DNA of 64,000 nucleotides from Thalassovita gelatinovora (lineage in GTDB: Bacteria; Pseudomonadota; Alphaproteobacteria; Rhodobacterales; Rhodobacteraceae). The stretch spans positions 1 to 64,000 of the forward strand of contig NZ_CYSA01000010.1 of NCBI RefSeq assembly GCF_001458355.1. The letters run 5' to 3'. The first letter of the stretch is position 1, and each line of letters opens with the position of its first letter. A program made the translations under genes and the position numbers. Positions 53,412 through 63,893 of the stretch are shown in pieces. The notes below the pieces were generated by a model. The model made no database searches. It was given only the letters and a program-made list of their open reading frames with translations, and was not told where the DNA came from.

Positions 53412-54068
53412 CTACCGCTGCCCATCTCTGCTGTCCCCCGTCTTGCCATGTACCGAAGCCAGATGGCATTCGGCCAATCGTCTGGCGGTTCTGGCAAAGC
53501 TGGGGTCCCGCGAATGCTGGGCGGCAACGATGGCACCGTCAACAAGGACGGCAAGACTGCGCGCGGTTTCAGTAACATCGGGTATCTTCATTTCCATGGC
53601 TTGTGCCTTGAGCCAGGTAAGAAGGTATTCCTTGTGCAGATCGGCCGCGCGGCGGACCGCGTCATTGCCGGTATCGAATTCGGCGACGGCATTGATGAAC
53701 GGGCAGCCATAGAATCCCGGATCGGAAAACCATTCTTCCAGCACGTCAAACACCGCCAACAGGCGGGTTTGCGCCGGACCGTCGATTTCGGCCAGTCGGC
53801 CGAAGAACCAACTGCGCCAAGTTTCCCCTTCAGCTTCGAGGACAGCCGAGATCAAGTCTTCTTTCGAACGAAAGTGATTATAAAGCGTCGCCTTTGCAGT
53901 GCCCGCCCGCGACAGGATGGAATCGATCCCAGTGGCGGCAAAGCCGTGATTGCAGAACAGGTGGGACGCCGCGCTCATGATCTTGTCGCGCGCGGATGTC
54001 GCTGGCAGGGCGGCAAAGCTCCAGCCGGAAGTGTCCCGCAGGCAAATGTCGTTCAGTCCATCATCCAT
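53412..54068 (-). CDS. TetR-family transcriptional regulator, likely controller of the adjacent cyanase operon
   Basis: 218 residues from MDDGLNDICLRDTSG. After a 20-residue leader, the helix-turn-helix is IMSAASHLFCNHGFAATGIDSILSRAGTAKATLYNHF (residues 29-65). The C-terminal domain resembles the TetR_C_33/LmrA-like group that often responds to small hydrophobic or electrophilic ligands. It is divergent from the ABC transporter operon with a 416-base gap, so it is a good candidate to regulate it. The start chosen has an ATG near the conserved region; an upstream in-frame ATG at 54098 is possible. Confidence 0.88.
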   Translation of the reverse strand: MDDGLNDICLRDTSGWSFAALPATSARDKIMSAASHLFCNHGFAATGIDSILSRAGTAKATLYNHFRSKEDLISAVLEAEGETWRSWFFGRLAEIDGPAQTRLLAVFDVLEEWFSDPGFYGCPFINAVAEFDTGNDAVRRAADLHKEYLLTWLKAQAMEMKIPDVTETARSLAVLVDGAIVAAQHSRDPSFARTARRLAECHLASVHGKTGDSRDGQR

Positions 54069-54484
54069 TTCGGCGGCCCTTCGTGAAACACCACGCAAAT
54101 CTCAAAAGGCACCCGGAAAACTAACAGCCTGCGCTGTAACAAGGCGCCTCTTGTAAAATGTTTTCCATATATAAGGCGATAAATCAAGACAGATTGGTCT
54201 TCTTCTTGAAGGTCCTTTTTAGGAATCGGGCTGCTGGTGAATCTACCGACTCTCCCTTGTGTCTTCCGGGAATTTTCGGTCGGGTGAGAGGTGGAAACGC
54301 GAAAATGAGTCATTTTACGCCCGAATACGGGCGGTCTAGCTCAATTTTCGCCAAAATATTACTCAAACCAAGTTTGTCGCCCATTTGGCAGGTCGAAAGA
54401 TTGACGGGGGCAAATGGATTCGCCGTAATTAGACAGAACGGTATGTTCAGTGCTGCTTGATTGACGTGAGTGAAAGGGGACGAA
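54069..54484. promoter_or_regulatory. Divergent promoter region of the cyanase-type operon
   Basis: A 416-base AT-richer region between the TetR gene and the ABC ATPase gene. A short dyad AGACAGATTGGTCT lies at 54187-54200 (AGAC/GTCT ends), a weak operator candidate. No gene, and no riboswitch was recognised. Confidence 0.45.
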
Positions 54485-55351
54485 ATGATCGTGACGCGAT
54501 TAAACGAGACGGCCGCAGATCCTGCGGCAATTGCCCCCGCAGAGCGCATCGTGAAACCCATCCGGGGCTCGCATGTCGCCATTCGTGCGCTTTCACATGC
54601 TTACCGGCGTTCAGATGGGCTTGTCCTGAAAGACATGGATTTCGAAATCCAACAAGGCGAGGTTGTCGCACTTCTCGGCCGATCAGGATGTGGCAAGTCA
54701 ACGCTGTTGCACATGATGGCGGGGCTGACCTTGCCCAGTCAGGGCGAGGTCGTGATCAATGGTAACACCTTGCGGGCCCCGTCGCCGAAATGGGTCATGA
54801 TGTTTCAGGCCCCGTCGCTTTATCCTTGGATGACGGTGGCCCAGAACGCGGCACTTGGCCTGCGATTTTCGCGGCGCAGCGATGAAATCGCTCAGCGCGT
54901 CCCAGAAGTGCTTGGACTGGTCGATCTTGCCAGTTTTGCAGATCGTAATGCGCAGGAATTGTCCGGTGGCCAGCAACAGCGCGTAGCCCTGGCCCGATCG
55001 CTCGCCCCGAGCCCGGAAATGCTGCTTCTGGATGAACCGTTTTCGGCGCTTGATGCCTTCACGCGCCGCGCTTTGCAAAAAGACGTGCGTAAGATTGCCA
55101 AGACCCTCGGCCTTACCTTGGTCATCGTGACCCATGATGTGGGCGAAGCGGTGCGTATGGCCGACCGTGTTCTGGTGCTCGAAGCCAATCCAGGACGCAT
55201 CGCCGAAGACACCCAGATCGCCCTGACCGAGGACGAGCGCAGCGGCGGGTCCGAGCCATTCCAGAACGAACATTCCCGCCTTATGGGCATTTATTCCGAT
55301 GTCGCCGACATGAGCGATGTCCCCACCGAAAACGATTTCGCGCAGCTTTAA
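54485..55351 (+). CDS. ABC transporter ATP-binding protein (nitrate/sulfonate/taurine-type)
   Basis: 288 residues from MIVTRLNETAADPA, with RBS AAAGGGGAC. Walker A LGRSGCGKSTLL (near residue 67), Q-loop VMMFQAPSLYPW, signature LSGGQQQR, Walker B MLLLDEPFSALD and H-loop VIVTHDVGEAV form a complete importer ATPase. The best family match is the SsuB/TauB/NrtD-like group, which handles small N or S organic or inorganic anions. It precedes the binding protein and permease genes, so the three form one importer. Weak GTG start at 54470 also possible. Confidence 0.93.
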   Translation: MIVTRLNETAADPAAIAPAERIVKPIRGSHVAIRALSHAYRRSDGLVLKDMDFEIQQGEVVALLGRSGCGKSTLLHMMAGLTLPSQGEVVINGNTLRAPSPKWVMMFQAPSLYPWMTVAQNAALGLRFSRRSDEIAQRVPEVLGLVDLASFADRNAQELSGGQQQRVALARSLAPSPEMLLLDEPFSALDAFTRRALQKDVRKIAKTLGLTLVIVTHDVGEAVRMADRVLVLEANPGRIAEDTQIALTEDERSGGSEPFQNEHSRLMGIYSDVADMSDVPTENDFAQL

Positions 55352-55367
55352 GAGGACCGAAAGACCT

Positions 55368-56663
55368 ATGACCGATCCCCATCACAAGAAGACCTGTTCG
55401 CACCAGCATGAACACGGGCATGAACTCGACCTCCACGGTGCCTGCTGCGGCGGCGAAACCGACTTCGATCCTGGCCGTCGTTCGGCGCTGGATCTTCTGG
55501 CCAAGGGCGGCATGGCTGCGATGCTGGCCGGTATGACCGGGGCGCTGCCGCAGATGGCACAAGCCCAAGATGATGACGTGCTGCGCATCGGATATCTGCC
55601 GATTACCGACGCGACTCCGCTATTGGTGGCCCATGCCAAAGGGTATTTCGAAGAAGAAGGTGTCAAGGCCGAAAAACCGACGCTGATCCGCGGCTGGTCG
55701 CCGCTGATCGAAGGCTTCGCGGCGGGCAAGTTCAACCTGGTGCACTTCCTCAAACCGATCCCGGTCTGGATGCGCTACAACAACAACTTCCCGGTCAAGG
55801 TGATGGCCTGGGCTCATACCAACGGGTCGGCCTTGGTGGTGGGGCGTCATACCGATATTGCCGATTTCGCCGGTCTAGGCGGTAAACAGGTGGCGGTTCC
55901 GTTCTGGTATTCGATGCACAATATCGTGCTGCAATACGCGCTGCGCGCCGCCGGGATCAAGCCGGTGATCAAGGCGCAGGGTGAAGCGATTGCCCCCGAC
56001 GAATGCAACCTGCAGGTCCTGCCTCCGCCCGAAATGCCGCCCGCTTTGGCCGCCAAGAAGATCGACGCCTATATCGTGGCCGAACCGTTCAACGCCTTGG
56101 GCGAATTGAAGGCCGGGGCCCGGATGCTGCGGTTTACCGGCGATATCTGGAAAAATCATCCCTGCTGTGTGGTCTGCATGAACGAAGAGACCACCAAGGC
56201 GAAACCGGAATGGACCCAAGGCGTGATGAACGCGGTGGTCAAGGCGTCGATCTATGCGTCGCAAAACAAGGAAGAAGTGGCAGAACTGCTTTCCAAGGAC
56301 GGGGCAGGATACCTGCCAGCCCCCGCTGCGGTGGTGAAGCGTGCGATGACGCTTTACGCCGACAATCCCGACTATATCGAATCCGGCGCGATCAAGAACG
56401 AAGGCGAATTCCTCAACGGCCGGATCGATTTCCAGCCTTGGCCCTATCCTTCGGCGACCAAGCTGATCGTCGGGGCAATGAACAAGACAGTGGTGTCGGG
56501 CGATACGACTTTCTTAGACGGGCTGGACCCTGAATTCGTGGCCAATGACTTGGTCGATTACAACTTCGTCAAGAACGCGCTGGAAAAATACCCCGAGTGG
56601 AAAAGCGATCCTTCGGTCAGCGGTGGCGATCCCTATACCCGTACCGAGATCCTGAAACTATGA
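55368..56663 (+). CDS. ABC transporter substrate-binding protein with His/Cys-rich leader
   Basis: 431 residues from MTDPHHKKTCSHQ, length as in NrtA/CynA-type binding proteins. The mature fold starts LRIGYLPITDATPLLVAHAKGYF, typical of the NMT1/NrtA/SsuA group of type II binding proteins. The N-terminus is odd: residues 5-27 contain seven His and three Cys before an RRSALDLL motif (37-44) and a hydrophobic stretch ending AQA (about residue 66), like a twin-arginine signal. Tat export would imply folding, perhaps with a bound cofactor or metal, in the cytoplasm. Ligand not predictable; NrtA-type members bind nitrate, cyanate and bicarbonate. Confidence 0.88.
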   Translation: MTDPHHKKTCSHQHEHGHELDLHGACCGGETDFDPGRRSALDLLAKGGMAAMLAGMTGALPQMAQAQDDDVLRIGYLPITDATPLLVAHAKGYFEEEGVKAEKPTLIRGWSPLIEGFAAGKFNLVHFLKPIPVWMRYNNNFPVKVMAWAHTNGSALVVGRHTDIADFAGLGGKQVAVPFWYSMHNIVLQYALRAAGIKPVIKAQGEAIAPDECNLQVLPPPEMPPALAAKKIDAYIVAEPFNALGELKAGARMLRFTGDIWKNHPCCVVCMNEETTKAKPEWTQGVMNAVVKASIYASQNKEEVAELLSKDGAGYLPAPAAVVKRAMTLYADNPDYIESGAIKNEGEFLNGRIDFQPWPYPSATKLIVGAMNKTVVSGDTTFLDGLDPEFVANDLVDYNFVKNALEKYPEWKSDPSVSGGDPYTRTEILKL

Positions 56664-57475
56664 GCACGCTGGCCGATATTCCCATGCGGTTCAGCCTACC
56701 CGGGCTGGGCCGTGCCCGGGGGGTGGTGAATGCCGCTCTCGGCATCGGTATTCTGCTGGCCCTTTGGTGGGGCGGCGGCTGGGTCGTCGCCAACAACGAT
56801 GATCTGTTCGCTTTCGCCGATTTTGCCCCGGCACCGACACTGACGCGGCTGTGGGAAATGATCGTGACCGGCGAGGTGGTGAGCATGTCTGGCCCGTCGC
56901 TGATGCGGGTTGGGTTGGGTCTGCTCTATGCGGCGGCAATCGGGGTGCCGGTGGGGATCACCATCGGGCGGATGAAGCGGGTGAATGAAGTGGCCAACAT
57001 GCCGTTTCAATTCCTGCGGATGATTTCACCGCTCGCCTGGATGCCGATCGCTGTAATGGCGTTCAAGACCTGGGATGGTGCGATCATCTTCCTGATCACT
57101 ATGGCCGCCGTCTGGCCGATTCTGTTTTCCACCGCCGGTGGGGTGCGCCGGATCGACCCGGCTTGGCTCAAGGTGGCGCGGAACTTGGGCGCTAATCCGA
57201 TCCACATGCTCTTCGTGGTGATCCTGCCGGCGATCGCGGTCGATGTCCTGTCAGGGATCCGGCTGGCGCTTGGTGTGGCTTGGGTGGTGTTGGTGCCGGC
57301 CGAATATCTCGGGGTGACCTCGGGCCTTGGCTACGCGATCAACGATGCCCGCGACACGCTCGACTATGCCCAGCTTGGGGCCGTGGTGGTGGTGATCGGT
57401 GTCATTGGCTTCATGCTCGACTGGCTTTGCATGATGGCAATCAAGAAATTCAACTGGCTGCGCGAAGATCACTGA
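56660..57475 (+). CDS. ABC transporter permease (nitrate/sulfonate/taurine-type)
   Basis: 271 residues from MSTLADIPMRFSLPG, starting inside the stop of the binding-protein gene (ATGA). Six hydrophobic helices; the EAA-type loop appears as VARNLGANPIHMLFVVILPAI (near residue 190). It matches the SsuC/NrtB-like permease group. Start at 56660 is supported by overlap; an upstream in-frame start is possible but overlaps more. Couples with the preceding ATPase. Confidence 0.93.
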   Translation: MSTLADIPMRFSLPGLGRARGVVNAALGIGILLALWWGGGWVVANNDDLFAFADFAPAPTLTRLWEMIVTGEVVSMSGPSLMRVGLGLLYAAAIGVPVGITIGRMKRVNEVANMPFQFLRMISPLAWMPIAVMAFKTWDGAIIFLITMAAVWPILFSTAGGVRRIDPAWLKVARNLGANPIHMLFVVILPAIAVDVLSGIRLALGVAWVVLVPAEYLGVTSGLGYAINDARDTLDYAQLGAVVVVIGVIGFMLDWLCMMAIKKFNWLREDH

Positions 57476-57526
57476 CGCGCCTCCAAAAGACGAGACCAAA
57501 TATCTGACTACCAAAGGAGAATTCAG

Positions 57527-58081
57527 ATGTCCGAACCTGCAACCGCACTCACTGGCTGCCTTGCTCCCGACGCGGGTCTCGACCCGATCGACAAATCCGG
57601 GTTGGAAGGGTTGATCGCAAAGGGCAAGGAAAATCCCCAGGCGATCAAAACGCTGAAATGTAAAACCGTTGCCGAGGGCCGTTTCCGCCACGCCAACTAT
57701 ATCCGAAACCTTGAACCCTATATCGTCGACGAACCGCCAGCGTTGCTGGGCGACGACACTGCGCCGAACCCGTCCGAGGCTTCTCTGGCCGCTCTGGGGT
57801 CCTGTGTTGCGGTTGGTCTGCACGCCAACGCTGTTGCCCGCGGTATCACCGTGCAATCGCTGGAACTGGAATTGGAAGGTGATCTGAACATCACTGCCGT
57901 CTGGGGCACCGGCGATGTATCGGCAAAGCCGGTTGGTTTCACCGATGTGCGCATCAAAGTCGACATGAAAGCCGACTGCCCGCAGGAAGAAATCGACGCT
58001 TTGGTCAACCACGTGATCCAGTGGTCGCCAGTGTTCAACACCTTCTCGCGGCCGGTGAACATGATCGCCGAAACCGTCTGA
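57527..58081 (+). CDS. OsmC-family protein lacking the second catalytic cysteine
   Basis: 184 residues, start after AAAGGAGA. The OsmC/Ohr fold is evident: PNPSEASLAALGSCVAVGLHANAVARGI with Cys93, the peroxidatic-type Cys. The position of the second (resolving) Cys, normally in a C-P-V motif, reads WSPVFNT with Ser167. So thiol peroxidase chemistry of OsmC is doubtful; a carrier or ligand-binding role is possible. It is the fourth gene of the operon. Confidence 0.85.
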   Translation: MSEPATALTGCLAPDAGLDPIDKSGLEGLIAKGKENPQAIKTLKCKTVAEGRFRHANYIRNLEPYIVDEPPALLGDDTAPNPSEASLAALGSCVAVGLHANAVARGITVQSLELELEGDLNITAVWGTGDVSAKPVGFTDVRIKVDMKADCPQEEIDALVNHVIQWSPVFNTFSRPVNMIAETV

Positions 58082-58170
58082 CCCAAACCTTGTCCCTCGG
58101 TCGCGCGAAGCCGGGGGGCAGGGCCACCACCTCCACCTCTCTTTTCCGATGCCTGCCCAGGAGCTCTGCC

Positions 58171-59274
58171 ATGAATATCGCGACACCCTTAAACGCAATC
58201 CAGATGGACGAAATCGAACGGATTTCGTGTCAAACCCTCGCCCCGATGGCGCGCAAAATCGACGAAGAACGCATTTATCCCGAAGAGATCATGCGCGCCA
58301 TGGGCGCTGCCGGGGCCTATGGCACCCATATTGGCGGGACTGAAGCGGGTACGGACCTGTCCGATGCCATCTTGTCGATGGCCAAGGCGTCCGAAACCTG
58401 TCTGTCCACCGGTTTTTGCATGTGGTGTCAGGATACGCTGGCCTGGTACATCGCGAGTTCAGACAATGATTGGCTCAAGTCCAACATTCTGCCCAAGGTT
58501 GCCACCGGCGAAGTGTTGGGCGGGACCGGCATGTCCAACCCAATGAAATCCATCGCCGAAATCGAACCGCTGCGCCTCAAAGGCAAGCGCGTCGAGGGCG
58601 GCTATTCGGTGAAAGGGCTGCTGCCTTGGGTGTCAAACCTGTCCGAAGACGGCTGGTTCGGCATCATGTTCTCGGTCGAGGACGGCGATCAGCTCAAGAC
58701 CGTGATGGCCATTGCCCACGCGGACGAATCCAAGGGCGTCAGGCTCAAACTTGACCACGAATTCGTTGCGATGGGTGGGACGGCCACTGCCAACATCCAG
58801 TTCCGCGATGTCTTCATTCCCGACGAACAGGTGGTCGGCGACCCGGCCCCGGCTTTCATTCAGCGCATCCGTGGCGGCTTCGTTCTGCTGCAATGCGGTA
58901 TGGCCGCTGGCATGATCAAAAGTGCGATCGACCAGATGGAGCAGGTCAAAGGCCCGCTTGGACATGTGAACAAGTTTCTCGACAAGCAGCCGGAGGATTT
59001 CCAGGCCGAATATGACGCCCTTGTCGCCGACGTGCTGGAAATGTCGAAGACGCCTTATGACCTAAGCCCGGAATTCTGGAAGCGCGTGCTCGAAGCGCGC
59101 CTCAAGGGCGGCGAATTGGCTATGGAGGCGGCCCATTACGCTATGCTGCATTGCGGCGCGCGCGGCTATGTCAGCCACGGCGCAGCGCAACGCCGCATGC
59201 GCGAAGCCTATTTTGTCGGCATCGTGACCCCGGCGACTAAGCACCTGCGCAAGATGCTGGCCGAACTGGGCTGA
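58171..59274 (+). CDS. Acyl-CoA dehydrogenase-like flavoprotein
   Basis: 367 residues from MNIATPLNAIQMDEIE after GGAGCTCTGCC. It has the acyl-CoA dehydrogenase three-domain layout; the FAD-contact region GGTGMSNPMKSIAEIEPL sits near residue 115. The usual catalytic Glu of true dehydrogenases is not clear. Members of this superfamily that work as flavin-dependent monooxygenases (DszC/SfnB-like) desulphurise or oxidise small molecules, which is more in keeping with neighbours such as rhodanese and cyanase. Substrate unknown. Confidence 0.86.
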   Translation: MNIATPLNAIQMDEIERISCQTLAPMARKIDEERIYPEEIMRAMGAAGAYGTHIGGTEAGTDLSDAILSMAKASETCLSTGFCMWCQDTLAWYIASSDNDWLKSNILPKVATGEVLGGTGMSNPMKSIAEIEPLRLKGKRVEGGYSVKGLLPWVSNLSEDGWFGIMFSVEDGDQLKTVMAIAHADESKGVRLKLDHEFVAMGGTATANIQFRDVFIPDEQVVGDPAPAFIQRIRGGFVLLQCGMAAGMIKSAIDQMEQVKGPLGHVNKFLDKQPEDFQAEYDALVADVLEMSKTPYDLSPEFWKRVLEARLKGGELAMEAAHYAMLHCGARGYVSHGAAQRRMREAYFVGIVTPATKHLRKMLAELG

Positions 59275-59390
59275 GACGAATTTTCGAGGGAGGAGAGCGA
59301 ATTGTCCGTGGCGCACCTGCCGTGCCACGGGGCCTGAGAACGATTGTCAGTATTTTTCTCCAACAGGGACCAAGAAAAGGAAACAAGCCT

Positions 59391-60248
59391 ATGACTACAG
59401 CACTCGTCTCCCCCGAAGACCTCAAGCTCATGATTGATGGCGACGTTGCCGTCGTGATCGACACCCGTGACCCCGAAAGCTATGCCGCTGGCCACATCCC
59501 CGGCGCGGTGAACATGCACGACATCTTCACCTTCCTGGCCACCTCCGATGCTTCGGGCATGGCCGCACTGAAAGAAAAATTCGCCGCTGAATTCGGTGCG
59601 GCGGGGCTCGACGGCGAAAAGACCGCCGTGATCTACGAAGCCTCGATGGACACCGGCTTTGGTCAATCGTGCCGCGGGTTCTATCTGCTCAGCTTCCTTG
59701 GTTATCCCAAGGTGAAGGTCCTGCATGGCGGTTTCGCGGCCTGGGCTGCCGATGGCATGCCGGTGTCGACCGAAACAGTGGCTCCTGCATCCGCCGGGTT
59801 CGACATCGACGAAGCGGCCGCGTCGATCATGATGGATGTCGAAGACATGAAAGCGGCCATCGAAGACGACAGCGCCGTCATCCTTGATGTGCGTGACATC
59901 GACGAGTGGATCGCCACCTCCTCGTCACCCTACGGCGTTGACTTCTGTCCGCGCAAGGGGCGCATTCCCGGTGCCGTCTGGATCGAATGGTACCGGATGA
60001 TGAAGCCCACCGCGCATGGGTCGATGTTGAAATCGAAAGACGAAGTGCTGGCCGAATGCGCCACCGTGGGCATCACCCCCGACACGCCGGTGAAAATCTA
60101 CTGTTTCAAGGGTGCGCGGGCATCGAACACCTTTCTCGCGCTGAAAGAAGCCGGGGTGAAGGACGTGTCGATCTATTTCGGATCATGGAACGAATGGTCG
60201 CGCGATCCGTCCCTGCCGATCGAGGAAGGTCTGCCGTTCGGCGCCTGA
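59391..60248 (+). CDS. Two-domain rhodanese (sulfurtransferase)
   Basis: 285 residues, two rhodanese domains (about 1-125 and 140-285). The active Cys is Cys238 in C-F-K-G-A-R-A, replacing the typical C-R-x-G-x-x; the N-terminal domain has no Cys at that place (E83), as in other tandem rhodaneses. The family opening VAVVIDTRDPESYAAGHIPGAVN is clear. It could transfer sulfane sulfur to cyanide to give thiocyanate or handle thiosulfate; the wider acceptor range is possible. Upstream 5' extension is not family-like. Confidence 0.88.
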   Translation: MTTALVSPEDLKLMIDGDVAVVIDTRDPESYAAGHIPGAVNMHDIFTFLATSDASGMAALKEKFAAEFGAAGLDGEKTAVIYEASMDTGFGQSCRGFYLLSFLGYPKVKVLHGGFAAWAADGMPVSTETVAPASAGFDIDEAAASIMMDVEDMKAAIEDDSAVILDVRDIDEWIATSSSPYGVDFCPRKGRIPGAVWIEWYRMMKPTAHGSMLKSKDEVLAECATVGITPDTPVKIYCFKGARASNTFLALKEAGVKDVSIYFGSWNEWSRDPSLPIEEGLPFGA

Positions 60249-60287
60249 TTCACCAAGATTTCTAACTCACTAAATGGAGAATACCCG

Positions 60288-60740
60288 ATGACTACCCGCG
60301 CAGAGCTGACCGAGAAAATCGTCGCGCACAAGACCTTCAACGATATCAAATGGGCCGATGTCGCAACTGCTGTTGGCCAGTCCAAGGAATGGGTGACGGC
60401 GGCGCTGATGGGCCAGATTTCCCTGAGCAAGGACCAGATCGAAAAGGCGGGCAACGCCTTGGGTCTGAATTTTTCGGACGAGGAAACCGCCCTGTTGATG
60501 ACGGTGCCCTATCGTGGATCTTTGCCCTCGGCGGTGCCGACCGATCCGTTGATCTATCGTCTTTATGAAGTGATCAGCGTCTATGGCACCACCATGAAAA
60601 CCCTGATCGAGGAAGAATTCGGCGACGGCATCATGTCGGCCATCGATTTCACCATGGACATCTCGCGCGAAGAAAATCCCGCTGGCGACCGGGTGAAAAT
60701 CGTGCTCGACGGCAAATTCCTGCCTTACAAGATGTATTGA
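60288..60740 (+). CDS. cynS: Cyanase (cyanate hydratase)
   Basis: 150 residues, complete. Cyanase converts cyanate and bicarbonate to carbamate and CO2, then ammonia. The N-terminal helix-turn-helix-like domain (residues 1-75) and the C-terminal catalytic domain are recognisable; the active-site residues are Arg91, Glu94 and Ser117 in PTDPLIYRLYE and GIMSAIDF. Decameric in known members. Ribosome site ATGGAGAA is present. It lies between the rhodanese and FAD reductase genes. Confidence 0.96.
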   Translation: MTTRAELTEKIVAHKTFNDIKWADVATAVGQSKEWVTAALMGQISLSKDQIEKAGNALGLNFSDEETALLMTVPYRGSLPSAVPTDPLIYRLYEVISVYGTTMKTLIEEEFGDGIMSAIDFTMDISREENPAGDRVKIVLDGKFLPYKMY

Positions 60741-60796
60741 TCCCTGCAACGGGCGCGCAATTCATCGCGCGCCCGTGACCTGAAAGAGTTTCCGAC

Positions 60797-62029
60797 ATGA
60801 CACATATCGCCGTGATAGGGGCCGGTCAGGCAGGATCTGCCTTGGCCGCAAAGCTTCGTAATCTGGGTTTCGACGGCCGGCTTTCTTTGATTGGTGCCGA
60901 ACCGGTGCCACCTTACCAACGCCCGCCGCTGTCGAAGAAATACATGCTGGGCGCTTTGGACAAAGAACGGCTCTTTCTTCGCCCCGAAACCTTTTATGCC
61001 GAACAGGGCATCGACTTGATCACCGGGGCACGGGTGGCTGCGCTTGATCCGCAGACCATGTCGCTGCGCATAGACGACGGCACCCAGATTGCTGCTGACA
61101 TGATTGCCTTGACCACCGGGGCCGATCCGATCCGTTTGCCCGACGCCGTCGGCGGGCAGTTGGACAACGTTTATACCATGCGGTCCCTGGCCGATGCCGA
61201 CGCGGCAGCGCATGAGTTTCGCCCTGGGCGCCGGGTTCTGATCGTTGGCGGTGGCTATATCGGTCTTGAAGCCGCCGCGGTGGCGGCACAACAGGGGGTC
61301 GCTGTGACCTTGGTGGAAATGGCGCCCCGTATCCTTGCCCGCGTCGCTTGCGCGGAAACGGCGGACTGGGTCAAGGCGATGCACGCGTCGCATGGCGTGG
61401 ACATCCGAGAAAACTGCGGGCTGGAAATACTGTCCCGGTCGCCGGACGGGCAGCTGTCGGCACGATTGACCACCGGGGCAGAGATCGACATCGATTTCGT
61501 CATCTGCGGTATCGGCGTGCGCCCGTCCACCGCCCTGGCCGGAGCGGCCGGAATCGAGGTCGATAACGGTATCAAGGTTGATGATTACGGACGCACCAGC
61601 TGTGAAAACATCTTTTCTGCCGGTGATTGCGCCTCTTTCCCATGGAAAGGCGCGCGCATCCGTCTTGAAAGCGTGCCCAATGCGATCGATCAGGCCGAAG
61701 CGACGGCGGCCACGATGCTGGGACAGGGCTCGGCCTATGTGGCGCGGCCATGGTTCTGGTCCGACCAATACGATACCAAGCTGCAAATCGCCGGTCTCAA
61801 TACCGGGTTCGACCATGTCGTTACCCGCCCCGGAGACAAGCTCGGTAGCCAGAGTCACTGGTATTTCCGCGGCACCAAATTGCTGGCGGTGGACGCGGTG
61901 AACGACCCGCGTGCCTATATGACCGGCAAGCGTCTGATCGAGGCAGGGCAATCGCCAGTGGCTGACGCTGTGTCCGATCCGGCCACACCGCTCAAGGCGC
62001 TGCCCCTGATCTCCGATTGCGCGGCCTGA
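60797..62029 (+). CDS. FAD/NAD(P)H-dependent ferredoxin reductase-like flavoprotein
   Basis: 410 residues. Two nucleotide-binding folds: FAD motif VIGAGQAGSALA (residues 5-16) and NAD(P) motif VLIVGGGYIGLEAA near residue 150; the second FAD contact SAGDCASFP sits near residue 276. Length and the C-terminal domain match putidaredoxin/rubredoxin reductase types that feed electrons to monooxygenases via small iron proteins. No ferredoxin or rubredoxin gene is in this operon. Might serve the acyl-CoA-dehydrogenase-like protein. Confidence 0.9.
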   Translation: MTHIAVIGAGQAGSALAAKLRNLGFDGRLSLIGAEPVPPYQRPPLSKKYMLGALDKERLFLRPETFYAEQGIDLITGARVAALDPQTMSLRIDDGTQIAADMIALTTGADPIRLPDAVGGQLDNVYTMRSLADADAAAHEFRPGRRVLIVGGGYIGLEAAAVAAQQGVAVTLVEMAPRILARVACAETADWVKAMHASHGVDIRENCGLEILSRSPDGQLSARLTTGAEIDIDFVICGIGVRPSTALAGAAGIEVDNGIKVDDYGRTSCENIFSAGDCASFPWKGARIRLESVPNAIDQAEATAATMLGQGSAYVARPWFWSDQYDTKLQIAGLNTGFDHVVTRPGDKLGSQSHWYFRGTKLLAVDAVNDPRAYMTGKRLIEAGQSPVADAVSDPATPLKALPLISDCAA

Positions 62030-62226: not shown

Positions 62227-62658
62227 TCAGCTGCGGTCGATCTTGGTGCTGAGCTGTATCAGGCTTTCTGAGCTTTTCACCCCCTTGGCGTCGCCGATCC
62301 GGTCCAGGGTGTCATCCAGTTCTTCGGTGCTGCGCGCGCAAAGCTCTACGATCATGTCGAACCGTCCGCTGGTTGTATGGACCCGGACCACGTTGGGCAG
62401 CGATTTCAGCCGCGCCAGTACTGCCGGACCTGAGCGCGGCTCGATAGACAATAGCGCCGTTGCCTTCAGCCGGGGGGCGGATTTCCGCCCCAGCCGCAGC
62501 GTATACCCGGCGATGGTCCCATTGGTTTCCAACCGGTCGATCCGGGCCTGCACCGTGGTGCGGGCAAGCCCCAGCTTGCGGGCCAAGGCCGTGACCGACA
62601 GGCGGGCATTTTCGGTCAGCAGGGTCAGCAGGGCGGTATCTGTTTCGTCATTTTGCAT
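62227..62658 (-). CDS. Lrp/AsnC-family transcriptional regulator
   Basis: 143 residues from the ATG at 62658 (a TTG lies one codon upstream). Winged helix with LARKLGLARTTVQARIDRLETNGTI and a C-terminal RAM domain with GRFDMIVELCARSTEEL. It is divergent from the ornithine-decarboxylase-like gene (104 bases between), so probably its regulator, responding to an amino acid. Confidence 0.92.
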   Translation of the reverse strand: MQNDETDTALLTLLTENARLSVTALARKLGLARTTVQARIDRLETNGTIAGYTLRLGRKSAPRLKATALLSIEPRSGPAVLARLKSLPNVVRVHTTSGRFDMIVELCARSTEELDDTLDRIGDAKGVKSSESLIQLSTKIDRS

Positions 62659-62762
62659 CAAATGATTATGAAACTGACGAAAGAAAGAGTCAATTTGGGC
62701 AACTTTACCAGCAATTCTGACGTCTCTTCAGGCGATAGTGAAAAAAAACAGCGAGGTATTTC

Positions 62763-63893
62763 ATGCGGCCCGAACCCCATTGGCTGTCGCCAAGGCAGCA
62801 TTTGCAGCGTATTCAACCGGACGCGGCGGTGATGTATTTCAGTCCCGTCACCCTGCAGCAGCAGGCTTGTCGGTTTCTCGACGGGTTTCCCGGATTGGTC
62901 AGCTACGCGGTCAAGGCCAACCCGGACGAGGCGGTTCTGGTCAATCTGGTGGCCGCCGGGATCACCGTGTTCGATGTTGCTTCTCCGGTGGAAATGGCGG
63001 CGGTGCGGGCGGTGTGCCCCGATGCAGTCCTGCATTATAACAACCCGGTCCGATCACCTGCCGAAGTGGCGGCGGCGGCAAAGTTCGGGATCGCTTCGGC
63101 ATCGGTCGATTGCCCGCGCGAGTTGGACAAGCTTGCGGTGCTGGGCAGAGATCTGGAAATCAGCGTCCGGCTGGCACTGCCGGTGAAGGGCGCGGCCTAT
63201 GATTTTGGGGCGAAATTCGGGGTCGGGCCGGACCTCGCGGTGGCGTTGTTGCGACAGGTGGCCGCGCGGGGCTATCGTCCGGCACTGACCTTTCATCCGG
63301 GCACGCAATGCGACGCGCCTGAAGCGTGGGAAGCCTATATCTCGGCGGCCGCCGATGTGGCAAGCCGCGCCGGGGTGACCCTTGATCGGCTGAATGTCGG
63401 CGGCGGTTTTGCCGCGCACCGGGCCGGTCCCGCACCCGATCTGAATCGTATTTTCGGCCGCATTGGGCAAGCCGCGGCGGCGGCTTTCGATCGGGTGCCG
63501 CACTTGGTTTGCGAACCGGGCCGGGCGATGGTGGCCGAAGCGTTCAGCCTTGCCACCCGGGTCAAGGCGGTGCGGGCGGATGGTTCGGTGTTTCTCAATG
63601 ACGGCATCTATGGCGCACTGTCGGAACTGCGCGATATGGGCGGGCTGGACCGGTTGCGCTGCGTTGCACCCAATGGCGAAGCCCGCACAGGTCGCCCGGT
63701 GTCGCGCATACTATTCGGGCCGACCTGCGACAGTCTGGACCGGCTGCCCGATCCGATCGCTTTGCCTGACGATTTGCAAGAGGGCGATTATGTCCTGTTC
63801 GACGGGATGGGGGCTTATTCTTTGGCGCTGGCCACCCGGTTCAATGGCTATGGGCCGACACACTCCGTCACCGTTGCGTCACTCTGCGGTTGA
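62763..63893 (+). CDS. Ornithine decarboxylase-like fold III PLP enzyme
   Basis: 376 residues. The PLP Lys51 is in LVSYAVKANPD, GGGF near residue 217 and EPGR near residue 256 contact the phosphate, and the catalytic Cys322 is in FGPTCDSLDRL; DGMGAYS ends the active site. The set fits eukaryotic-type ornithine/lysine decarboxylases, cytoplasmic enzymes that make putrescine or cadaverine. The Asp of the D-x-L substrate-specificity pattern and the exact specificity are not resolvable. It follows GCGAGGTATTTC. Regulated probably by the divergent Lrp gene. Confidence 0.9.
   Translation: MRPEPHWLSPRQHLQRIQPDAAVMYFSPVTLQQQACRFLDGFPGLVSYAVKANPDEAVLVNLVAAGITVFDVASPVEMAAVRAVCPDAVLHYNNPVRSPAEVAAAAKFGIASASVDCPRELDKLAVLGRDLEISVRLALPVKGAAYDFGAKFGVGPDLAVALLRQVAARGYRPALTFHPGTQCDAPEAWEAYISAAADVASRAGVTLDRLNVGGGFAAHRAGPAPDLNRIFGRIGQAAAAAFDRVPHLVCEPGRAMVAEAFSLATRVKAVRADGSVFLNDGIYGALSELRDMGGLDRLRCVAPNGEARTGRPVSRILFGPTCDSLDRLPDPIALPDDLQEGDYVLFDGMGAYSLALATRFNGYGPTHSVTVASLCG

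Follow-up and report, generated by a model that had tools for sequence, protein, structure and literature searches.

Thiocyanate is a toxic compound of carbon, nitrogen and sulfur with both natural and industrial origins. Two enzymatic thiocyanate pathways are described, and heterotrophs of several genera are reported to use thiocyanate as a nitrogen source (PMC5328954, in the part of its text available), though no gene assignment for these heterotrophs was found in the openly licensed literature searched, itself available in part. The closest described systems are the thiocyanate hydrolase (carbonyl sulfide) operon of Thiobacillus thioparus (PMC5328954) and the cyanate pathway of Thioalkalivibrio, for which the available parts of PMC5328954 and PMC5744179 describe a thiocyanate:cytochrome c oxidoreductase (thiocyanate dehydrogenase) clustered with copper genes and with two pairs of permease and ATPase genes. 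The window analysed here is a stretch of 64,000 nucleotides on contig 10 of the 3.9 Mb genome of Thalassovita gelatinovora. Within it, eight plus-strand open reading frames (ORFs; 54485–62029) stand beside a minus-strand TetR-family gene (ORF map and family models; Table 1) and encode an ATP-binding cassette (ABC) importer with the binding protein SBP1, an OsmC-like protein, an acyl-CoA dehydrogenase (ACAD)-like flavoprotein, a rhodanese, a cyanase and a reductase. The locus is probably an inducible thiocyanate-assimilation operon that would convert thiocyanate to cyanate; the substrate is assigned by association, and we infer the chemistry and the order of steps. The proposed products, cyanate and sulfane-level sulfur, are like those of the Thioalkalivibrio pathway as given in the same two sources, but a flavoprotein, OsmC and cyanase make up the cluster here, and the eight operon genes all belong to families other than thiocyanate dehydrogenase (the carrier genomes were not searched for that enzyme).

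The importer links the locus to the hydrolase pathway. A search for nitrile-hydratase-type subunits among 399 genomes (the order of genome G484) gave matches in 87, and ten loci, picked among the weaker full-length matches, comprised four hydrolase operons with an importer, two alike without an importer and four nitrile-hydratase-like loci. In the four operons with an importer (L227–L230), genes for thiocyanate-hydrolase-type subunits are followed by an importer 51–58% identical to that of the window (ATPase, 52–54%; SBP1, 52–55%; permeases, 51–57%), with DsrE-, TusA- and sulfide:quinone-reductase-like genes downstream of the importer and, in L227, L228 and L229, a cyanase near the operon. Comparison with the solved thiocyanate hydrolase 2dd4 was made for L227 (gamma, 2.1e-160; alpha, 6.8e-72) and L230 (gamma, 8.5e-146), while L228, whose small alpha gene was not reported by the simple gene caller, and L229 were assigned by layout. 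The L227 gamma subunit was also above the TIGR03887 cut-off (398.8 vs 291.45 bits), and the layout of L227–L230 agrees with the T. thioparus locus as the available part of PMC5328954 presents it. The hydrolase operons thus resemble the window operon in importer clade, in a nearby cyanase (L227–L229) and in sulfur-handling genes, but carry cobalt hydrolase subunits where the window has OsmC, the ACAD-like flavoprotein and rhodanese.

In a midpoint-rooted tree of 56 binding proteins, the L227–L230 proteins joined the ACAD-type SBP1 rows (support, 98/97), and this hydrolase/ACAD group adjoined the CMD, plasmid pANL and Pseudonocardia rows described below. The CynA-type rows lay across a fully supported long branch, outside of which the window SBP1 was placed; by its grouping (98/97) and its Cys-Cys motif, the window protein belongs with the hydrolase-operon binding proteins. 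A single importer clade thus serves thiocyanate hydrolase in some loci and the ACAD module in others, and it is likely, by association, that the SBP1 importer carries thiocyanate. No hydrolase gamma subunit (TIGR03887) scored above cut-off in the 11 ACAD-positive genomes, six of which had sub-cut-off, nitrile-hydratase-type matches to the hydrolase model. Given the common importer clade and this absence of above-cut-off hydrolase, the simplest reading is that OsmC-ACAD, with or without rhodanese, stands in for the hydrolase. A candidate hydrolase in the T. gelatinovora genome, a nitrile-hydratase-type alpha subunit on contig 26 (261178–261723, minus strand), was rejected as it fell below the hydrolase cut-off.

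By sequence SBP1 is kin to NrtA/CmpA-type proteins, with a His/Cys-rich N-terminus followed by an Arg-Arg leader. Cys266-Cys267 was conserved in all 73 distinct SBP1-class sequences, and a Cys-Cys pair was present in 55 of 58 distinct CynA/NrtA-like sequences (exceptions, L146, L158 and L175); the aligned position reads HPEK in NrtA (2g29), QPKK in NrtC (8w9m) and HPGK in chain 9uai_E. Of the 29 family genomes that have cyanase but no ACAD gene, 28 supplied cyanase loci as a control. Cys-Cys occurred in 15/15 CynA-type binding proteins of these loci, L146 and L158 had NrtA-like proteins with Asn-Pro-Glu-Lys (NPEK) instead, and 11 of the 28 loci gave no binding-protein match. The motif was therefore rejected as a mark unique to the ACAD pathway and would instead mark a cyanate/thiocyanate importer class, with no discrimination between the two ions. 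The cyn operons share with the window a cyanase and a Cys-Cys binding protein, but their binding protein is of another clade, and mapping of the 28 control loci showed neither OsmC nor ACAD nor rhodanese.

Conservation of the block in related genomes, which the sequence-only reading had named as a check, was examined in the best 80 of 368 stretches encoding relatives in a genome contig scan, which we take to be alphaproteobacterial (L068, L078 and L093 are identified only as Proteobacteria bacterium). Presence counts were drawn from 60 of these loci, the 20 with short flanks being dropped; because about ten genomes occur both in the family set and among the 80 loci, residue counts are per distinct sequence, and the cyanase-link, ACAD-residue and SBP1-neighbour data omit tblastn segments that contained stops or were covered only over a short length. 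The block is kept: OsmC lies directly 5' of ACAD in 60/60 loci and the order of all nine window genes (TetR and the eight) recurs exactly in 13/80, which places the operon beyond chance. Rhodanese was present in 54/60 loci, cyanase nearby in 45/60, the reductase in 34/60 and a TetR gene upstream of ACAD on the opposite strand in 57/60, while the importer was of the SBP1 class in 43/60 and of the CynA type in 19/60, with both side by side in 7/60. OsmC-ACAD is the invariant pair and rhodanese occurs almost throughout; cyanase, importer type and reductase vary.

The ACAD gene (E ≤ 1e-30) is sparsely distributed, occurring in 11/295 genomes of the family and 2/289 of a class-wide sample (T. gelatinovora included in both), and was not found in the one same-genus genome of the 295. 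All ten ACAD-positive family relatives have TetR, importer, OsmC, ACAD and rhodanese in a single order. Cyanase (PF02560) was present in 11/11 ACAD-positive family genomes against 40/295 overall (hypergeometric p = 7.6e-11, treating genomes as independent despite their common ancestry). In two of these genomes (G153, G181) cyanase is on a different contig from the ACAD locus, and in three (G016, G231, G254) a second cyanase match lies outside it (~10 kb away in G231). In a phylum-wide sample, SBP1 adjoins the ACAD gene in 15/17 loci.

The flavoprotein has the ACAD fold (55 PDB sequences at E ≤ 0.01; best, 1ws9, 1.6e-17) with alignment over most of its length. Acyl-CoA dehydrogenases carry a catalytic Glu in an E-G-T motif at the end of the C-terminal domain, and Thr353-Pro354 aligns where these enzymes have Glu-Gly. 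Among 108 distinct sequences, position 353 is Thr in 106, Ser in one and Ala in one, and both Pro354 and Gln241 are invariant (108/108). A true acyl-CoA dehydrogenase was therefore rejected, the catalytic Glu being replaced at the C-terminal position examined (as distinct from the IVD-type base position). In the Marinobacter, Acetobacter and Moraxella plasmid loci, the reductase adjoining ACAD starts with a rubredoxin-like domain (one was scored, just under cut-off), and a ferredoxin-like gene occurs in 10/80 loci, directly 3' of the reductase in L045. These partners suggest that the flavoprotein carries out redox chemistry, whichever its direction, and the flavoprotein and reductase, earlier proposed as an oxidative pair, are upheld as a plausible redox pair.

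OsmC/Ohr peroxidases use a peroxidatic and a resolving cysteine. The OsmC-like protein departs from this two-cysteine pattern, with Cys93 and, at the expected place of the second cysteine, Ser167 in all 86 distinct sequences, although the serine is not unique to the ACAD pathway, as the nearest solved OsmC-type chain (2opl) has it as well. Outside the OsmC group, the gene 5' of ACAD encodes a CMD/AhpD-like protein with an invariant G-C-x-F-C-V-A-G-H motif (11/11 aligned, from six genome loci and plasmids of Deinococcus, Agrobacterium, Roseomonas, Variovorax and Moraxella) or, in pANL and Pseudonocardia, a DUF4242 protein with K-C-L-C-F-Y-D (2/2). By alignment, then, every type of ACAD partner (OsmC, CMD/AhpD-like and DUF4242) has a conserved cysteine. 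In the rhodanese, Cys94 and Cys238 are present in 72/72 distinct sequences with 60% identity or more. The cyanase belongs to its family by two models, and the earlier assignment of its catalytic residues is borne out, with Arg91, Glu94 and Ser117 (window numbering) at exactly those positions.

In the proposed route, SBP1 and the ABC transporter would bring thiocyanate into the cell, a step supported by association. The ACAD-fold flavoprotein would then oxidise thiocyanate at sulfur, exchanging electrons with the flavin adenine dinucleotide (FAD) reductase, OsmC would take the sulfur through Cys93, and rhodanese would pass on the sulfane sulfur. The cyanate formed would be converted by cyanase, with bicarbonate, to ammonia and CO2, an established activity of that family. 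For the OsmC step, a speculative path is that hypothiocyanite reacts with Cys93 to give Cys-S-S-CN, hydrolysis of which would yield cyanate and a persulfide, though this particular chemistry is rather doubtful. The fuller proposal is evenly balanced between true and false: a flavoprotein of the ACAD fold lacking its Glu would oxidise thiocyanate, a single-cysteine OsmC (or an AhpD-like or DUF4242 protein) would carry the persulfide and cyanate would go to cyanase, making a third biochemical route spread over Proteobacteria, a cyanobacterium, a Deinococcus and Actinomycetota, with a nitrogen version that includes cyanase and a sulfur version without it. In cyanase-less relatives the importer-ACAD core may serve sulfur supply, as suggested by those versions (8/16 SBP1 genomes) and by the pANL genes beside a cysteine synthase.

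The sequence-only reading had taken the locus for an operon for catabolism of a nitrogen and sulfur compound, which gene content and conservation support, and had proposed that the extra genes convert an organic substrate to cyanate. The extra genes probably do feed cyanase, but the grouping of the importer with those of thiocyanate hydrolase operons makes inorganic thiocyanate a likelier substrate than either an organic nitrile or an isothiocyanate; a thiocyanate-containing compound had been only one of the examples given, and we infer both substrate and pathway still. The cluster may explain thiocyanate use by some bacteria without the two known enzymes. If so, it offers candidate genes for heterotrophic thiocyanate use, adds a new activity to those of flavoenzymes, gives OsmC-like and AhpD-like proteins a role in sulfur transfer and provides a sequence marker by which importers of the cyanate/thiocyanate class can be recognised, and it makes the open question of heterotrophic thiocyanate use directly testable. 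No account of an OsmC-ACAD thiocyanate module was found in the openly licensed literature searched.

Several observations weigh against a thiocyanate route. Thiocyanate transport by the hydrolase-operon importer is itself read from gene order, and two of the hydrolase-like loci (L231 and L232), with cyanase nearby, had no importer in the stretch examined. No SBP1-class gene lies near 17/60 ACAD loci (12 with a CynA-type importer only, five with neither), such that the CynA-only loci would need a CynA importer that carries thiocyanate, or else the substrate differs among loci. Further, 15/60 loci lack a nearby cyanase and 6/60 lack rhodanese, two of the 17 SBP1 genes (L124 and L125) have no ACAD neighbour, cyanase is absent altogether from 8/16 other SBP1 genomes of the phylum-wide sample, and the Cys-Cys motif is, as the control loci show, common to cyanate-type importers. 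To our knowledge, no ACAD- or OsmC-family enzyme acts on thiocyanate.

The shared motif and the cyanase within the operon would also fit cyanate scavenging and protection, in which cyanate taken up through SBP1 is consumed by cyanase and the part of OsmC, ACAD and rhodanese is to repair or detoxify by-products. This is improbable, as both importer types occur side by side in several loci (for example L018, L020, L021 and L022) and in 7/60 of the well-flanked set, SBP1 adjoins ACAD in genomes without cyanase and groups with the hydrolase-operon proteins rather than the CynA type, and OsmC and ACAD are absent from stand-alone cyanate loci. Equally improbable is the import and oxidation of an organic sulfur/nitrogen substrate (isothiocyanate, organic thiocyanate, thioamide or similar) with cyanate or thiocyanate as intermediate; known enzymes of the ACAD fold act on organic substrates and the Pseudonocardia plasmid cluster includes an LLM flavin oxidoreductase and a hydroxyethylthiazole kinase, but the importer clade is common to thiocyanate hydrolase operons and no recurrent hydrolase, amidase or acyl-CoA enzyme was seen among the mapped cluster genes (short of a full family scan of neighbours). 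Cyanide handling, with rhodanese and the flavoprotein turning cyanide into thiocyanate or cyanate, is very improbable despite the adjacent rhodanese and cyanase and the activity of rhodanese on cyanide, since most hydrogen cyanide carries no charge at neutral pH and its entry should need no binding-protein importer, and 6/60 loci keep OsmC-ACAD without rhodanese.

Beyond the alphaproteobacterial loci, a thiocyanate module would extend to plasmid pANL of Synechococcus elongatus PCC 7942, where a DUF4242-ACAD-importer group (L138, 8845–12868) stands beside a cysteine synthase, a catalase and a chromate transporter. Its binding protein, permease and ACAD are 45%, 46% and 32% identical to those of the window, but a DUF4242 protein replaces OsmC, and rhodanese and cyanase were not found in the stretch examined. 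The available part of PMC9239245 places a sulfur-metabolism region on pANL, and the group may represent a form of the module used for sulfur supply. On a Pseudonocardia plasmid (L179, 3616–10863), a DUF4242-ACAD-importer group is followed by the hydroxyethylthiazole kinase, the LLM flavin oxidoreductase and a rhodanese-like gene. The SBP1-class proteins of L124 (8580–9890; G331) and L125 (8512–9744; G355), 55–58% identical with Cys-Cys kept, are encoded amid very large ORFs that resemble signalling proteins by appearance, perhaps for thiocyanate sensing. Two chromosome-sized Neisseria gonorrhoeae records in the plasmid collection contain an ACAD homologue (~38% identity) where no gene is listed, the gene table of that collection being incomplete.

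ORF coordinates and family models confirmed the layout first noted in the window, a same-strand block of eight genes with short gaps, one ATGA overlap and a divergent TetR gene (Table 1). The ATPase and SBP1 genes are 16 bp apart, SBP1 and permease overlap at ATGA (56660–56663), and the gaps that follow are 51 bp (permease-OsmC), 89 bp (OsmC-ACAD), 116 bp (ACAD-rhodanese, the largest), 39 bp (rhodanese-cyanase) and 56 bp (cyanase-reductase). Terminator-like patterns across the region numbered five against 9.2 expected from shuffles, a scan that is weak evidence either way. Directly downstream are an Lrp/AsnC regulator (62227–62661, minus strand) and then a diaminopimelate/ornithine-decarboxylase-like gene (62763–63893, plus strand; below family cut-offs), neither with any sign of operon membership.

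Table 1. Features of the putative thiocyanate operon in the T. gelatinovora window.
Feature	Position	Strand	Basis
TetR-family regulator, divergent, predicted local repressor	53412–54098	-	PF00440, PF16925
Predicted TetR operator, GACAGAACGGTATGT	54432–54446	+	Conserved site in TetR/ATPase intergenic region
ABC importer ATPase	54485–55351	+	PF00005
Binding protein SBP1, likely thiocyanate-binding	55368–56663	+	PF13379 (NMT1_2-type)
ABC importer permease	56660–57475	+	PF00528 (BPD_transp_1)
OsmC-like protein, Cys93 and Ser167, proposed sulfur acceptor	57527–58081	+	PF02566
ACAD-like flavoprotein without catalytic Glu, proposed thiocyanate-oxidising enzyme	58171–59274	+	PF02771 (Acyl-CoA_dh_N)
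Two-domain rhodanese (sulfurtransferase), Cys94 and Cys238	59391–60248	+	PF00581
Cyanase, cyanate to ammonia and CO2	60288–60740	+	NF002773 and TIGR00673, both above cut-off
FAD-dependent ferredoxin/rubredoxin-type reductase	60797–62029	+	PF07992 (Pyr_redox_2) and PF14759 (Reductase_C)

The operon is predicted to be inducible, with TetR repressing it from a single nearby operator. Sites differing from ACAGAACGGTCTGT at no more than two positions were found in 52/70 homologous TetR/ATPase intergenic regions and in 0/70 shuffled regions, the consensus being derived from the same regions. In the T. gelatinovora genome, the only perfect match to the ACAGAACGGTCTGT pattern is the operator itself. 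A wider TetR regulon was rejected, with no sites at one mismatch and 27 at two mismatches against 23 in the reversed control; because the sole perfect site is nearby and two-mismatch matches are near background, TetR is a predicted local regulator. A weaker, second operator-like sequence, AGACAGATTGGTCTTC, lies nearer the TetR gene (54187–54203), with similar sequences in L042 and L045.

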